Below, in pieces: positions 29,358-35,492 of a DNA stretch of 52,191 nucleotides. A model generated the notes under the pieces. It was not told the DNA's origin. It saw only the letters and a program-made list of their open reading frames with translations, and made no database searches. The DNA is from Microbacteriaceae bacterium (lineage in GTDB: Bacteria; Actinomycetota; Actinomycetes; Actinomycetales; Microbacteriaceae): assembly GCA_027490915.1 (NCBI GenBank), contig JAIXXG010000017.1, positions 1 through 52,191 on the forward strand, written 5' to 3'. Position 1 is the stretch's first letter; the number at the start of each line of letters is the position of its first letter. Both the position numbers and the translations under genes were made by a program.

Positions 29358-30410
29358 GTGGCGCAGGACGACAGCATCGGGTCAGACCCTCCCCGCGCGC
29401 CCTGGGCCCGTCGCGCGGTCGCGACGGAGGACCGCCTGCACCGGTGGCGCGAGCGGCGGGCACGACGACGCGGCCTCGCGCCCGTGGTCATCCCGTACAG
29501 CGGGTACGGCGGGCGCGGCTTCATCCGCGTGCTCGGCCGCGTGCTGCTCGCGGCACCCGACTCCCGGCGCCGGTCGCCGAGCACGATCCGCGGCTGGCGC
29601 AGCTTCACGAGCATCCCCGTGGCCGACGCGGTCGTCACCGTGCGCGTCGGCGATCGCGAGCTCACGGTTCAGGCCGACCGGGGCGGGGTCGTCGACGTCG
29701 ACCTCGTCATCGACCTCGAGCCGGGCATCCGCGACATCACGCTGCAGGTGGAGCAGTCGGAGCCCGTCACCGCCCGCATCTTCGTCGTCGACCCGGATGC
29801 CCGCCTCGGCATCATCAGCGACATCGACGACACGGTCATGGTCACGGCGCTGCCCCGGCCCTTCCTCGCCGCCTGGAACACCTTCGTGCTCGACGTGCAC
29901 GCGCGTCGGCCCGTGCCGGGCATGGCGGTGCTGCTCGAGCGCCTCGCGCGGCAGCATCGCGGCGCGCCGGTGATCTACCTCTCGACCGGCGCCTGGAACG
30001 TCGCACCGACCCTCGACCGCTTCCTGCGGCGGCACCTCTACCCCGCCGGCACGCTGCTGCTCACCGACTGGGGCCCCACCCACGACCGCCTTTTCCGCAG
30101 CGGCCGCCAGCACAAGCGCGACAGCCTCGAGCGGCTCGCCCGCGAGTTCCCCGACATCAAGTGGGTGCTCATCGGCGATGACGGGCAGCACGACGAGGAG
30201 CTCTACCGCACCTTCGCGGCCGAGCACCCCGACCGGGTCGCCGCGGTGGCCATCCGCCAGCTCTCCACTTCTGAAGCCGTGCTCGCCGGCGGTCGCAGCC
30301 ACCTCGACGAGAACCGCCCCGCCGGCGCGCCGTGGGTCTGGGCCCCCGATGGCGCCGGGCTCGCCGAGCAGCTCGTCGAGCTCGGCGTGCTGCGCGCCGA
30401 CGACGCCTGA
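29358..30410 (+). CDS. App1/DUF2183 family phosphatase-like protein
   Basis: This 350-aa protein has the App1 (phosphatidate phosphatase) domain with the DxDxT nucleophile motif in ISDIDDTVMVTALPRP (about 154-169), followed by VPGMAVLLERLARQHRGAPVIYLSTGAWNV and FPDIKWVLIGDDGQHDEELY near 270-290, the latter completing a HAD-type active site. Yeast App1 dephosphorylates phosphatidate; the bacterial substrate is not known. GTG lies 6 bases after CACACT with no ribosome-binding site. The preceding palindromes suggest TetR control. Confidence 0.88.
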   Translation: MAQDDSIGSDPPRAPWARRAVATEDRLHRWRERRARRRGLAPVVIPYSGYGGRGFIRVLGRVLLAAPDSRRRSPSTIRGWRSFTSIPVADAVVTVRVGDRELTVQADRGGVVDVDLVIDLEPGIRDITLQVEQSEPVTARIFVVDPDARLGIISDIDDTVMVTALPRPFLAAWNTFVLDVHARRPVPGMAVLLERLARQHRGAPVIYLSTGAWNVAPTLDRFLRRHLYPAGTLLLTDWGPTHDRLFRSGRQHKRDSLERLAREFPDIKWVLIGDDGQHDEELYRTFAAEHPDRVAAVAIRQLSTSEAVLAGGRSHLDENRPAGAPWVWAPDGAGLAEQLVELGVLRADDA

Positions 30411-30458: not shown

Positions 30459-30474
30459 TCGAACACATGTTCGA
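30459..30474 (+). promoter_or_regulatory. LexA (SOS) box
   Basis: TCGAACACATGTTCGA is a perfect match to the actinobacterial LexA operator TCGAAC-N4-GTTCGA. TAGACT at 30475-30480 follows at once, and the ATG of the next gene comes 7 bases later, so bound LexA would cover the promoter. Confidence 0.88.
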
Positions 30475-30487
30475 TAGACTCGCGCCC

Positions 30488-30928
30488 ATGGGTCGGTGGA
30501 ACTCGCGACGGGCCGGGCCCGACCACCCGCGCCTCTTCGACGATGCTCGCGACATCCCCGTGCCGCTCGAGCCCCCGGCGCCGCGCGCCCGCGACGCGCT
30601 CGCGCCCTACGCCGCCGTGCTTGCCGCCGCCGAGGCAACCGCCATCGACACCCTCGGCCCGCGGCACGCCGGGCAGCGCGTCGTCATCGGCGGCGAGCGG
30701 CGCCCGGCCGACCGCCACCTGGGCGGCGACGCGCTGCTCGACGACGGCAGCGCCGTACTGCCGGTGCGGCTCGCGGCGCGGGCACCGCAGGGCCTGCGCG
30801 CGGCCCTCGCGGCGCGCTTCGTGCTCGTCAGCGGCGTGCTGCGTGCGCACGAGGGATCCCTCACGCTCGAGCCCGACGAGGTCGTCGACCTGCGAGCGGT
30901 CGCCCGCGACCTCGGCGCGCGCCGATGA
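30488..30928 (+). CDS. SOS-regulated protein of unknown function, possible OB-fold
   Basis: This 146-aa protein is not recognised. It has a basic, Pro-rich N-terminus (MGRWNSRRAGPDHPRLF), a helical middle (about 33-55) and a C-terminal half of alternating strands ending RFVLVSGVLRAHEGSLTLEPDEVVDL, which looks like an OB-fold strand pair as in the tail of DnaE2-type polymerases. There is no signal peptide. A perfect LexA box and TAGACT put it under direct SOS control, leaderless at ATG. Its stop codon lies inside the first TGAGAG palindrome of the next operon. A DNA-damage role is inferred. Confidence 0.75.
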   Translation: MGRWNSRRAGPDHPRLFDDARDIPVPLEPPAPRARDALAPYAAVLAAAEATAIDTLGPRHAGQRVVIGGERRPADRHLGGDALLDDGSAVLPVRLAARAPQGLRAALAARFVLVSGVLRAHEGSLTLEPDEVVDLRAVARDLGARR

Positions 30929-30979: not shown

Positions 30980-32545
30980 ATGGCGCGTCCCGGGCTCCCC
31001 CGCATCTCCGTGCGGTCGCGCATCCTCGCCGTCATCCTCGTCGTCACCGCATTCGGGATGACCGTCTCGGGTGTGACGGCGTACTTCGTGCAGCGCGACC
31101 TCACCATCGCGGGCCTCGACGCCGAGCTGCTCATCACCGTCGAAGCCGCGCGGTCGATCGTCACCGGCACGAGCGCGCCGGCGTCGAGCGAGGAGCCGGA
31201 CGCCGAGGCGACCGACGCCGACGGGACGGACGCCGGCACCACCCCCGACGAATCGACCGCGCCCGCCACGGTCGAGGAGGCGCTCACCGCGGTCCTCTCG
31301 CGCATCGTGCCGGGGCGGCACGAGAGCAGCGTCGCGATCGTCGACGGCGAGGTGCGCCTCGTTCCCGGCGTCGACACCGCCTTCGACCTCGAGGACGACC
31401 CGGCGTTCATCGAGCGGGCGTGGCGGGAGGCTTCGAGCGGCGAGGTGACGCTGGGCACGGCGACGACGACCGTCGGCACGCTGCGGTACGTCGCCGTTCC
31501 CGTCACGATCGCCGACGATCCGCAGGTCGGCGTCTTCGTCGCGGCCCTCGACGCGCAGCGAGCCGTCGACGAGGTCAGCGGCGCCTTCCTCACCTACGCC
31601 TGGCTCGCGCTCGCCTCCCTCGCCGCCGTGGGCGTCATCGGGTGGTTCGTCGCCGGCCGGCTGCTCTCGCCCCTGCGCACGCTCGCCGAGACGGCCTCGC
31701 GCATCACGGCCGAGGACCTCGGCGAGCGCATCCCCGTCACCGGGCGCGATGACGTGTCGACGCTCACCGAGACCGTCAACGCCATGCTCGACCGCATCGA
31801 CGAGGCCCTCACCAGTCAGCGGCAGCTGCTCGACGACGTGCGGCACGAGCTCAAGACCCCCATCACGATCGTGCGGGGCCACCTCGAGCTGCTCGACCCG
31901 ACCGCTCCCGCCGATGTGCGGTCGGTGCGCGACCTCGCGATCGACGAGCTCGACCGGATGGCCGAGCTCGTCAACGACATCGATGCGCTCGCGCGCGTCG
32001 AGACCGCCGTGCTCGTCGAGCCCGTCGACGTCGCCGACCTCACGGCTCTCGTGTTCAGCAAGATGCAGGCGATCCCCGGCCACGCCTGGGTGCTCGAGCG
32101 CACCGCGACGGCCGTCGCGCCCCTGTCGAGCTCGCGGATCACCCAGGCCTGGCTGCAGCTCGCCGACAACGCGGCGAAGTACTCCCCGGCTGGCAGCACC
32201 ATCCGGGTCGGCAGCACCGCCTACGCGGGCACGGTCGAGTTCTGGGTGGCCGACGAGGGGCCGGGCATCCCCGCCGGGGCCGAGAAGCGCATCTTCGAGC
32301 GGTTCGGCCGCGCCGACACCGGCCGCGGCATTGCGGGCTCGGGGCTCGGCCTGCCGATCGTGGCCGCGATCGCGCGCGCCCACGGCGGCTATGTGAGCCT
32401 CGACTCGTCGCCCTCCGGCTCGCGGTTCGGCATCGTCGTCCCGACGCTCGACGGTGCGGCACCGCCCCCGCCGGCGAGCGGGTTCAGCACCGAGCAGCAC
32501 GACCAGGCCGCGCCCGCAGCGGTCGCACCGGGGGAGGATCGTTGA
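30980..32545 (+). CDS. Two-component sensor histidine kinase
   Basis: This 521-aa kinase has a membrane helix at about 13-35, an extracellular domain (about 36-200) with a highly acidic Asp/Glu/Thr-rich stretch at 64-98, a second helix near 205-226, a HAMP linker, a dimerisation domain with phospho-acceptor His289 in RHELKTP, and an ATPase domain with QLADNAAKYSP (about 393), DEGPGIP and GSGLGLPI boxes. It senses an extracytoplasmic signal and phosphorylates the co-transcribed regulator. ATG is 6 bases after GATAAT, so it is probably leaderless. The stop overlaps the regulator start. Confidence 0.93.
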   Translation: MARPGLPRISVRSRILAVILVVTAFGMTVSGVTAYFVQRDLTIAGLDAELLITVEAARSIVTGTSAPASSEEPDAEATDADGTDAGTTPDESTAPATVEEALTAVLSRIVPGRHESSVAIVDGEVRLVPGVDTAFDLEDDPAFIERAWREASSGEVTLGTATTTVGTLRYVAVPVTIADDPQVGVFVAALDAQRAVDEVSGAFLTYAWLALASLAAVGVIGWFVAGRLLSPLRTLAETASRITAEDLGERIPVTGRDDVSTLTETVNAMLDRIDEALTSQRQLLDDVRHELKTPITIVRGHLELLDPTAPADVRSVRDLAIDELDRMAELVNDIDALARVETAVLVEPVDVADLTALVFSKMQAIPGHAWVLERTATAVAPLSSSRITQAWLQLADNAAKYSPAGSTIRVGSTAYAGTVEFWVADEGPGIPAGAEKRIFERFGRADTGRGIAGSGLGLPIVAAIARAHGGYVSLDSSPSGSRFGIVVPTLDGAAPPPPASGFSTEQHDQAAPAAVAPGEDR

Positions 32546-33204
32546 CCAGCATCCTGATCGTCGAGGACGAGACGCGCATCTCGTCGTTCATCGAGAAAGG
32601 CCTCTCGGCGGCGGGATACTCGCCCACCGTCGTCGCCAATGGACTCGACGCGCTCGACTACGTCGCCACGGGGTCGTTCGACCTCGTGCTGCTCGACGTC
32701 GGGCTTCCGGGCATCGACGGGTTCGAGGTGCTGGCCCGCCTGCGGGCCGCCGGGGAGACCATGCCGATCATCATGCTGACGGCCCGCACGAGCGTCGATG
32801 ACACGGTCGCCGGGCTGGACGGGGGCGCCAACGACTACCTGCCGAAGCCGTTCAAGTTCGATGAGCTGGTGGCGCGCATCCGGCTGCGGCTGCGCGAGTC
32901 GGGTCAGCAGCGCGTCGTCGAGACCGTGCTGCGGCACGGAGACGTCGCCCTCGACCTCAAGACGCGGCGGGTGTCGGTGGGCGACCGCTCGATCGATCTC
33001 TCGGCCCGCGAGTTCGCCCTCGCCGAAGAGTTTCTGCGCCACCCCGATCAGGTGCTGTCGCGCGAGCAGCTGCTGAGCCGCGTGTGGGGCTTCGACTTCG
33101 ACCCGGGGTCGAACGTCGTCGACGTGTACGTTCGCTACCTGCGCGGCAAGATCGGCGCCGAGCGCATCGAGACGGTGCGCGGCATGGGCTACCGCCTGGT
33201 CTGA
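32542..33204 (+). CDS. OmpR/PhoB family response regulator
   Basis: This 220-aa regulator has a receiver domain with Asp52 in LVLLDVGLPG, the switch residue in TARTS and Lys in YLPKPF, and a winged-helix DNA-binding domain ending VDVYVRYLRGKIG...VRGMGYRLV. The start is a rare TTG overlapping the kinase TGA (TTGA) behind GGGGGAGG. It is the likely protein that binds the TGAGAG-N2-CTCTCA palindromes, since these occur only around this operon and the two exported proteins next to it. Confidence 0.93.
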   Translation: MTSILIVEDETRISSFIEKGLSAAGYSPTVVANGLDALDYVATGSFDLVLLDVGLPGIDGFEVLARLRAAGETMPIIMLTARTSVDDTVAGLDGGANDYLPKPFKFDELVARIRLRLRESGQQRVVETVLRHGDVALDLKTRRVSVGDRSIDLSAREFALAEEFLRHPDQVLSREQLLSRVWGFDFDPGSNVVDVYVRYLRGKIGAERIETVRGMGYRLV

Positions 33205-33228: not shown

Positions 33229-33627
33229 TCAGTCGTCGTCGCTGCCGCTGCCGCTGTTGCTGCCGCTGGTGCCGCTGTCGTCGTCGACGCTCGCGGGCGA
33301 GGGGATCGTCGCGGCAGAGGGCGAGGCGGTGCCCGCGGGGCGGGGCGCCACTGGCTGCGGGGCCGGCGCCGGGGCGCGATCGACATCGGCCGGCGTGGTC
33401 GGAGAGGCCGTGCCGCTGGGAACGGGCGTCGGCGTACTCGTGCCGGGACCGGGCGTCGGGGCGGCGCCGGGTGAGCCCGGCACCGTGGTGATCGGGGGAA
33501 CCTCGGCGATCGTCGTGCTGTCGACGAGGGGCATCGCGCGCGCGACACCGATCGCGCCGCTCGCGATCACGCCGATGCCGAGCGCCGAGACGGCCGTCAT
33601 GGTCACCCATCGACGGGACGCGGCCAT
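33229..33627 (-). CDS. Small exported protein with MPL motif and acidic Ser/Asp tail
   Basis: This 132-aa protein has a signal-like segment (about 9-30, TMTAVSALGIGVIASGAIGVARA), then AMPLVDSTTIAEVPPITTVPG, a long Pro/Thr/Ala/Ser-rich region without charged residues, and an acidic tail of Asp, Ser and Gly (SVDDDSGTSGS then DDD). It is a paralogue of the next upstream gene, which has AMPLIENVSGLSVPGLTTV at the same place. It should be exported and may be released, or stay tethered by an uncleaved helix. A palindrome lies 64 bases before the ATG, with GACAAT between. Function unknown. Confidence 0.75.
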   Translation of the reverse strand: MAASRRWVTMTAVSALGIGVIASGAIGVARAMPLVDSTTIAEVPPITTVPGSPGAAPTPGPGTSTPTPVPSGTASPTTPADVDRAPAPAPQPVAPRPAGTASPSAATIPSPASVDDDSGTSGSNSGSGSDDD

Positions 33628-33747: not shown

Positions 33748-34188
33748 TCAGTCGTCGATGCTCGCCGGGGTCGCGGGCGAGGGGATGCTCGCCGGGCTCG
33801 CCGGGGTCGGCGGGGTGTCGACCGAGGCGGGCGACACCGGGCTGGCCGGGCTGATCGGGCTGGCCGGCGAGAGCGGCGACGCGGGCGACTGCGCCGAGAC
33901 AGGCGACGCGGGCGTCTGCGCCGAGACCGCCGAGGGCGTCGACGTCGGCGACGGCGTCGCGGGCGACGAGCTCGACGTGGGCGAGACGATGCTGTCGCTC
34001 TCGACCGTGAAGTCGAGGTCGGCCGAGCTGCCGTCGTCGTCGGTGACGGTCGTCAGGCCGGGAACGCTGAGGCCGCTGACGTTCTCGATGAGCGGCATCG
34101 CGTTGGCGACGGTCGCCGCGCCACCGGCGGCCACCCCGAGGCTGAGCGCACCGGCCGCCCCCACGGCGATCCAGTTCTTGGTGTCCAT
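33748..34188 (-). CDS. Small exported protein with MPL motif and Pro-Ala-Ser-Pro repeats
   Basis: This 146-aa paralogue of the 132-aa protein has a signal-like N-terminus (MDTKNWIAVGAAGALSLGVA, then GGAATVANA), the AMPLIENVSGLSVPGLTTVTDDDGS motif, and from about residue 60 a low-complexity region of SPASP-type repeats ending in an acidic DD. GGAGGGAGG is a strong ribosome-binding site, suggesting high expression. Palindrome C lies about 88 bases upstream, inside the end of the phosphotransferase gene. It may be a wall- or membrane-associated sensor or ligand for the neighbouring kinase; this is speculation. Confidence 0.78.
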   Translation of the reverse strand: MDTKNWIAVGAAGALSLGVAAGGAATVANAMPLIENVSGLSVPGLTTVTDDDGSSADLDFTVESDSIVSPTSSSSPATPSPTSTPSAVSAQTPASPVSAQSPASPLSPASPISPASPVSPASVDTPPTPASPASIPSPATPASIDD

Positions 34189-34259
34189 GATTGTGTCCTC
34201 CCTCCGCACGAGCCGGGCGGCTCGTCGCGATGTCCCCACTCTCCGGGGGCACCGTGAGA

Positions 34260-35492
34260 TCACCAGGAGGAGGCGGTGAGAGGCCTCTCATCCGCGCGCA
34301 CGACGCGGTGCGCGCGCTCGATGAGCTCGGTCGCCCCCGCCGAGCCCGCTGCGGAGCGCGAGAGGGCGTGCCCCAGCAGCTGGGTGGCCGCGATGGCGTG
34401 GGCGCGGTCGGCGAAGCCCGGGTCGTCCGCGGCGAACCAGCGTCGCCGCCAGCCGTCGGCGAGCACGGATGCCCGCCGAGCGCGCAGCGTCGCCCGGCTG
34501 CCGCCGTCGTGCACGACCGTGGCGATGAGATGGGCGTAGAGCGCCGCGGCGTCGTCCGCCGGGTCGCCCCAGCCCGAGGTGTCGATGTCGAGCACCCCGG
34601 TGATGCGCGCGGGCGCCAGGGGGTCGACGAGCAGCTGCGCGAGGTGCAGGTCGCCGTGCACGGTGCGTGCGGGCGGCGGATCGCCCCCGGCGCGGAACCG
34701 ACGCGAGGCCGTGCGCGCGGTGCGCTCGATGAGTCCGTCGAGCGCGGGCAGCTGCTCGATGAGTCGCTCCTCGTACCACTCGATGCGCCGCACGAGCGAC
34801 GACCGCGCGGCCGAGCTCGAGGGCACCTGGGCGATCTGGGCGACGAGCCCCTCGATGGCGTCGAGCAGCAGGTCGGGAGCCGAGACCCGGTCGAGCACGC
34901 CGATCAGCTCCGACCCCGCGAGGGCCTCCAGCGCGACGAGGCCCTCCTCGCTCCACCCGAGTACCGCCGGCACCGGGATGCCCGCCGAGCGCCACAGCGT
35001 GTGCCGGGCCTGCAACGGCTCCGCAGCGGGAGGCCGCACGACCTTGAGGTAGTACGCGGTGGCATCGGTGTCGACGCGCACGACAGCGCGCTTGCCCGGC
35101 CGGTAGGCCGCGAGGCTGACCGTGAGCCCCCCGACCGGGAGGCCGAGCCGCGCGAGCACGACGCCCGCCGCCTCGGCGTAGACGGCCGTGCGCAGCGCGG
35201 GCAGGGCCGGGTCGGCCGGGTAGACCCAGACATCGACACGCTCGCCCGTGTCGGGGTTGCTGAGCGTGAGAACGCCCGGTCGCACGGCCTCGGCCGGCGA
35301 GGTCTCGACGAACACCGTGTGCTCGCTCGAGCCGCCGGCGGCGTCCCGCAGGGTGACCCGGTAGCCGTGCGTGAAGCCGTTGCCCGTGGGCTCGACCTGC
35401 AGGGCATGCGCGTCGACGAGCGTCGCGTCCAGCGAGAGCGCGACGGCGGCGAGGACATCGCGGTGGAGCACACCGTCGGGCACTGGGGTCAC
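34260..35492 (-). CDS. Aminoglycoside phosphotransferase-like kinase (APH family)
   Basis: This 410-aa protein has the APH fold: AYYLKVVRP with the ATP-anchoring lysine, the catalytic loop VHGDLHLAQLLVDP (about 276-289) and the metal-binding VLDIDTSGWGDPADDAAAL. The substrate is probably not an aminoglycoside; many such actinobacterial proteins phosphorylate small metabolites such as maltose or choline. The GTG at 35492 is chosen because AGAATA lies about 6 bases upstream; two more in-frame starts lie just upstream. It is not part of the two-component operon, although operator C overlaps its 3' end. Confidence 0.82.
   Translation of the reverse strand: MTPVPDGVLHRDVLAAVALSLDATLVDAHALQVEPTGNGFTHGYRVTLRDAAGGSSEHTVFVETSPAEAVRPGVLTLSNPDTGERVDVWVYPADPALPALRTAVYAEAAGVVLARLGLPVGGLTVSLAAYRPGKRAVVRVDTDATAYYLKVVRPPAAEPLQARHTLWRSAGIPVPAVLGWSEEGLVALEALAGSELIGVLDRVSAPDLLLDAIEGLVAQIAQVPSSSAARSSLVRRIEWYEERLIEQLPALDGLIERTARTASRRFRAGGDPPPARTVHGDLHLAQLLVDPLAPARITGVLDIDTSGWGDPADDAAALYAHLIATVVHDGGSRATLRARRASVLADGWRRRWFAADDPGFADRAHAIAATQLLGHALSRSAAGSAGATELIERAHRVVRADERPLTASSW
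34276..34291 (-). promoter_or_regulatory. Palindrome C (TGAGAG-N2-CTCTCA) before exported protein
   Basis: TGAGAGGCCTCTCA (34277-34290) is a perfect palindrome and the outer pair is G/T. It lies within the last codons of the phosphotransferase gene, about 88 bases before the ATG of the exported protein. Codon use there (AGG CCT CTC) fits a second constraint on the DNA. Confidence 0.6.

Follow-up and report, generated by a model that had tools for sequence, protein, structure and literature searches.

A small LexA-controlled protein of a Microbacteriaceae genus, probably the remaining tail of a C-family DNA polymerase induced in the SOS response

Which kind of protein is placed behind a perfect LexA operator when its sequence resembles nothing recognised, and from where does such a gene come? 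This question is raised by a locus in the window, i.e., the whole stretch of 52,191 nucleotides analysed here (contig JAIXXG010000017.1 of assembly GCA_027490915.1). The initial annotation had reported a perfect LexA box followed by TAGACT and an ATG, and all three elements are indeed found, at 30459-30474, 30475-30480 and 30488, respectively. The features of the locus are the following, the 146-aa protein being called hereafter the tail protein:

29358 to 30410, + strand: APP1/DUF2183-like protein (named from sequence motifs), upstream neighbour; the same neighbour stands before a LexA-like box and a full polymerase in several related genera.
30459 to 30474, no strand assigned: LexA operator (SOS box) TCGAACACATGTTCGA, perfect palindrome, one of three in the genome and kept before 14 of 14 genus genes.
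30475 to 30480, + strand: -10-like hexamer TAGACT, directly 3' of the box, proposed from sequence and orthologue comparison.
30488 to 30928, + strand: 146-aa protein with a clamp-motif-like arm, a helix and an OB fold, putatively the C-terminal tail, now detached, of a DnaE-type polymerase under SOS control (alignment, AlphaFold2, hhalign).
30524 to 30538, + strand: HPRLF, residues 13-17 (H-P-x-L-F, invariant in 14/14), at the position of the parent QLPLF/QLDFD, predicted disordered.
30587 to 30922, + strand: predicted helix, OB fold and closing helix, residues 34-145 (AlphaFold2, structure match, hhalign columns 38-145).
30980 to 32545, + strand: sensor histidine kinase, downstream neighbour; in most genus members lacking the tail gene it lies directly next to APP1.
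32542 to 33204: response regulator, after the histidine kinase.

Further downstream, the - strand at 33748-34263 encodes a small protein that starts with a signal-like segment and whose C-terminal half is made of repeats rich in Ser, Pro and Ala (SPASP units); it lies beside a similar small protein at 33229-33627.

The operator TCGAACACATGTTCGA is a perfect palindromic LexA box lying 13 nt ahead of the 146-aa open reading frame, and a 16-mer with up to three mismatches is expected by chance only 0.18 times per whole window. The strict palindrome TCGAACNNNNGTTCGA occurs at three sites in the 2.57-Mb genome, vs. none for the reversed control pattern; one of the two other sites is located upstream of imuA'-imuB-dnaE2, and the remaining one ahead of a DUF6504-like gene. 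As recA of the same genome carries TCGAACATCTGTTCGc and a LexA scoring above the curated cut-off is encoded there, the SOS system of this genome is ordinary and the box at 30459-30474 is real. The lexA gene itself (L170, contig C36) has three variant boxes upstream, at 1251-1337, with one, two and one mismatches.

A LexA operator overlapping the promoter is conserved before the orthologues of the tail gene. The hexamers TAGACT, TAGAGT, TACGAT or TACACT occupy the same position in most of them, and LexA bound to the box would cover the core promoter. The box conservation proposed earlier as a check holds throughout the genus: all 14 tail genes have a LexA box, which is perfect in 12 and has one mismatch in the two others (G018 and G010, both TCGAACACAGTTTCGA), and neither the tail gene nor the box is present in nine members of the genus whose APP1 locus is intact. 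The presence of the operator before every orthologue, together with its absence where the gene is absent, strongly supports SOS control, and the tail gene is almost certainly part of the SOS regulon. In the window, the ATG at 30488 comes 7 nt past the -10-like hexamer, and the box-to-start spacing is 13 nt vs. about 20-50 nt in the 13 other orthologues, most of which have a GGAGG-type ribosome site. The 5' leader with its ribosome site is missing from 30475-30487, suggesting that the mRNA made under LexA control is probably leaderless; the leaderless ATG noted in the initial annotation is thus plausible, as a peculiarity of the window species among the 14.

The start codon at 30488 is supported by the alignment of the N-terminus with those of the orthologues, and the reading frame and homology of the gene are solid on sequence grounds. 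As previously noted, the protein itself resembles nothing recognised: no match was obtained for it in Pfam, NCBIfam and PHROGs, nor in a PDB sequence profile search, and Pfam tRNA_anti-codon gives a weak match in four of the 14 family members (best E 0.016), one member scanned against the cut-off falling below it. Its net charge is about zero. AlphaFold2, run on the 14 sequences, predicts a first disordered stretch of 30 residues followed by a helix and an OB fold, with an overall pLDDT of 84.7 and values mostly above 90 over residues 34-145. Strands are predicted at 64-72, 82-85, 90-93, 111-121 and 124-134, and the closing helix starts with a DLR motif common to the parent tail described below. 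The model is thus a five-stranded OB barrel with a Z above 10 to OB domains, in line with the OB-fold-like half announced by the initial annotation. The predicted fold, including the preceding helix, is also that of the OB domain of DnaE1, both in Mycobacterium tuberculosis (7pu7, among the best matches, Z 10.2 with 97 residues aligned within 31-133) and in Taq (4iqj, Z 9.1); the DnaE1 domain is, however, only weakly similar to the tail protein in sequence, and is part of a replicative polymerase.

A fold match by itself gives no ancestry. Foldseek and VIA-align retrieve OB folds in general, the top Foldseek matches being generic OB folds, tRNA-synthetase and RPA domains; OB folds being common, an independent small OB protein of the tRNA_anti-codon or RPA/SSB-like kind could have come under LexA control and merely resemble DnaE tails. 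This is the least probable of the explanations considered here, and hardly a credible one, because the profile similarity is highest with the tail of one particular polymerase and reaches beyond the OB fold, and because both the locus and the kind of operator are common to that polymerase. When the tail profile was searched over 200 genomes of the family, matches outside the genus were found only in DnaE-type polymerases of about 1200 aa, at their C-terminal ends where read. We label alt-DnaE this third SOS-controlled DnaE, exemplified by a protein of 1159 aa (L050) with PHP, Pol3, finger and HhH domains and a weak OB match; in NCBIfam, alt-DnaE passes the superfamily cut-off and falls short of those for DnaE1 and for error-prone DnaE. 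In hhalign comparisons, the tail family matches the tail of alt-DnaE with 96.9% probability (E 1.5e-10), vs. 18.7% (E 0.0013) for the canonical DnaE2 tail and 1.8% (E 0.027) for the DnaE1 tail. The similarity to alt-DnaE takes in, besides the OB fold, the helix ahead of it and a closing DL..L...W segment. An origin in the tail of DnaE1 or of canonical DnaE2 is rejected on these profile scores. The DnaE2-like tail recognised by the initial annotation was therefore right as to the kind of domain, its source being alt-DnaE instead of canonical DnaE2.

The genomic context of alt-DnaE leads to the same origin. It is present in 80 of 300 genomes of the family (22 of 85 genera), and a perfect LexA box lies 23-60 nt ahead of its start motif at 18 of the 27 loci scored. 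In many other genera, a small DUF6504 protein directly precedes alt-DnaE and the operator precedes the pair; in four loci (L053, L135, L139 and L140) APP1 is found upstream, as in the window. A full alt-DnaE was sought in the window genus, and only DnaE1 and canonical DnaE2 were found. Locus, operator and sequence, taken together, point to the window gene as the remainder of alt-DnaE, and there is very little doubt, from sequence comparison, that it descends from the alt-DnaE tail, comprising the clamp-motif region, the helix and the OB domain. The tail protein is devoid of the polymerase core, of the catalytic aspartates (PDIDID) and of the PHP, Pol3 and HhH domains; it would thus be a descendant of the C-family DNA polymerases, not a member of them.

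The operator in the other genera is often a variant, either TCGAACATAGATTCGA or TCGAAGATATATTCGA with two mismatches, and recognition by LexA in these species is therefore only presumed. One variant, TTCGAAGATATATTCGAA, or a longer form with an extra TTCGAATATA, recurs before DUF6504-DnaE operons (L135, L138-L141, L143, L168 and L169), and could point to a LexA of shifted specificity or to a different repressor. In the genome of the window, a DUF6504-like (ImuB-C-like) gene at positions 1159-1596 of contig C82 (L019, L172) stands behind a second perfect LexA box, TCGAACGTATGTTCGA. It has homologues in 21 of 26 genomes of the genus, independently of the tail gene, and could possibly encode a free-standing mutasome subunit. 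The idea that it is the lost partner of the tail was considered and rejected, because its presence across the genus bears no relation to that of the tail gene and its resemblance to the DUF6504 of the operons is weak.

Alt-DnaE is probably of the DnaE2B/ImuB-C type, an assignment drawn from its DUF6504 neighbour and from its scores below both NCBIfam cut-offs and not from a DnaE tree. In a 2026 survey of bacterial DNA polymerases, actinobacterial DnaE2B is linked only to standalone ImuB-C, as in Arthrobacter alpinus, and is reported in genomes lacking ImuA/ImuB (PMC12926913). In agreement with such a pairing, alt-DnaE lies behind a LexA-like box, often directly after DUF6504, which we infer to be ImuB-C. 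The tail gene has in common with DnaE2B the clamp-motif region, the helix and the OB domain, and differs from it by having no PHP, polymerase or HhH domain. As only proteins with a polymerase domain were admitted to the survey and fragments shorter than 200 residues were set aside (PMC12926913), a tail-only protein could not appear there. The C-terminal OB domain is found in nearly all C-family polymerases, and the available part of the 2013 analysis stating this describes DnaEs without an OB domain and none with an OB domain standing alone (PMC3919608). Our search of the open-access literature yielded no paper describing a DnaE tail that stands alone under SOS control.

The tail protein was found in 14 of the 60 genomes searched, that of the window included, all of them within the window genus. 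In the loci read, the gene sits between the APP1-like gene and the histidine kinase. Among the nine members with an intact APP1 locus and no tail gene, APP1 adjoins the kinase in eight and is followed by another gene in the last one (G003); no hidden copy was detected between APP1 and the kinase in the members lacking the gene. On the DnaE1 tree, the distribution includes the deepest branches and needs two changes, which is most simply read as presence in the ancestor of the genus followed by two losses. Lost twice, the gene is not essential.

Two losses, and the origin of the protein as a fragment of a larger one, are also what would be expected of a decaying remnant, i.e., a transcribed leftover of the lost polymerase with no function of its own. 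This is nevertheless very improbable: the gene is under purifying selection, with pairwise dN/dS values of 0.12-0.42 (NG86) in all six pairs tested, it would have been kept since before the genus diversified, and both its frame and its operator are intact in 14 of 14 genomes. The 14 proteins also share 24 invariant residues, including H13, P14, L16, F17, D22, P24, DDG 85-87 and DLR 134-136. We thus hold the gene to be functional with high confidence.

What this function could be is suggested by the disordered arm. Most alt-DnaEs carry a QLPLF, QLDFD or similar motif just ahead of the OB tail, and the tail family has the invariant HPxLF at that place, followed by a D..IP which is similar too, a correspondence read by eye since the profile alignment started only at residue 38 and did not cover the arm. 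Mycobacterial ImuB cannot do without its clamp motif (PMC10421592). In the tail family the Gln of the motif is replaced by His in 14 of 14 proteins, a change that could weaken or abolish clamp binding, and the chances that the tail protein binds the sliding clamp are about even. The loop between beta1 and beta2, which is basic in the parent OB domain (TQTPPMRSGKR), is not conserved in the tail family, and DNA binding may therefore be weak or lost.

The whole is best explained, with reasonable though not high confidence, if what survives in the tail gene is the end of an SOS-induced polymerase of the C family, now acting as an adaptor or competitor at the clamp. By the time the genus began to diversify, alt-DnaE would have shed its PHP, palm, fingers and HhH domains and kept, at an unchanged chromosomal position behind APP1, the LexA operator together with the clamp-motif region and OB domain. 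Upon DNA damage, LexA would be cleaved and the small tail protein made; its HPxLF arm might dock on the sliding clamp while the OB domain might contact a partner or the template in single-stranded form. Itself devoid of catalysis, the protein could in this way serve as an adaptor or competitor and ease the exchange of the replicative polymerase for the ImuA'-ImuB-DnaE2 mutasome of the same SOS regulon, which is intact in this genome (ImuA' recognised by NCBIfam NF058630, DnaE2 over the NF004225 cut-off). The same anatomy, a clamp-motif-like arm and an OB domain without a catalytic core, would also suit a dominant-negative or checkpoint decoy, which would slow the replicative polymerase by sitting on the clamp, or on the template close to the fork, without recruiting a translesion polymerase. 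The replaced Gln argues for a weak clamp affinity and hence against such a decoy, which we consider rather unlikely; that the protein is a mutasome helper rather than a decoy is our preference, stated tentatively and short of an even chance.

Two known components of the response can be compared with the tail protein. Canonical DnaE2, of which this genome has an intact copy, is likewise LexA-controlled and is a polymerase of the C family that ends in an OB domain; its tail is however a much poorer match to the tail protein and its locus lies elsewhere. ImuB, a catalytically dead Y-family hub under SOS control, works through its clamp motif (PMC10421592) and is likewise a polymerase relative devoid of catalysis, but it belongs to another polymerase family and keeps most of the fold, whereas the tail protein keeps the tail only.

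Comparable reductions are seen in other lineages. In two genomes of a second genus (G238 and G322; L168 and L169), intact alt-DnaE frames of 986 or 963 codons lie behind APP1. PVIAVD or PVIAID stands there in place of PDIDID, so that two catalytic aspartates are lost, and blocks are missing; the variant kind of operator region is found, and a preceding DUF6504 is not recognisable. In two genomes from another family of the order (G558 and G633; L146 and L147), DnaE-derived frames of 506 and 524 codons have neither PHP nor palm, and keep a core fragment together with the HhH region, the OB tail and a QLELI-like motif or what remains of it, the boxes ahead of them being TCGAATAGGTGTTCTA (two mismatches) in G558 and TCGAATGCGTGTTCGA (one mismatch) in G633. 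These few genomes suggest separate inactivations or truncations sparing the tail. It is conceivable, and slightly less probable than the contrary, that SOS-controlled DnaE2B-type polymerases have repeatedly been stripped of catalysis, operator and tail being kept, to yield a non-catalytic clamp/DNA adaptor. If true, the tail by itself would carry a separable SOS function, unrecognised so far.

The initial annotation had proposed a new DNA-damage factor; its SOS control is supported by our comparisons, and it would be a derived piece of a known polymerase family and not an unrelated protein. A candidate component is thus added to the SOS response of actinobacteria, in which induced mutagenesis has been tied to the mutasome, and the tail gene raises a testable question, namely the role of the tail during SOS-induced polymerase exchange. 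Evolution appears to have isolated an OB domain and a clamp-motif region under damage control without the polymerase, with apparent parallels in other lineages. All these results suggest that DNA repair in the genus, which has kept the tail together with the damage switch, now makes use of a polymerase fragment acting independently.
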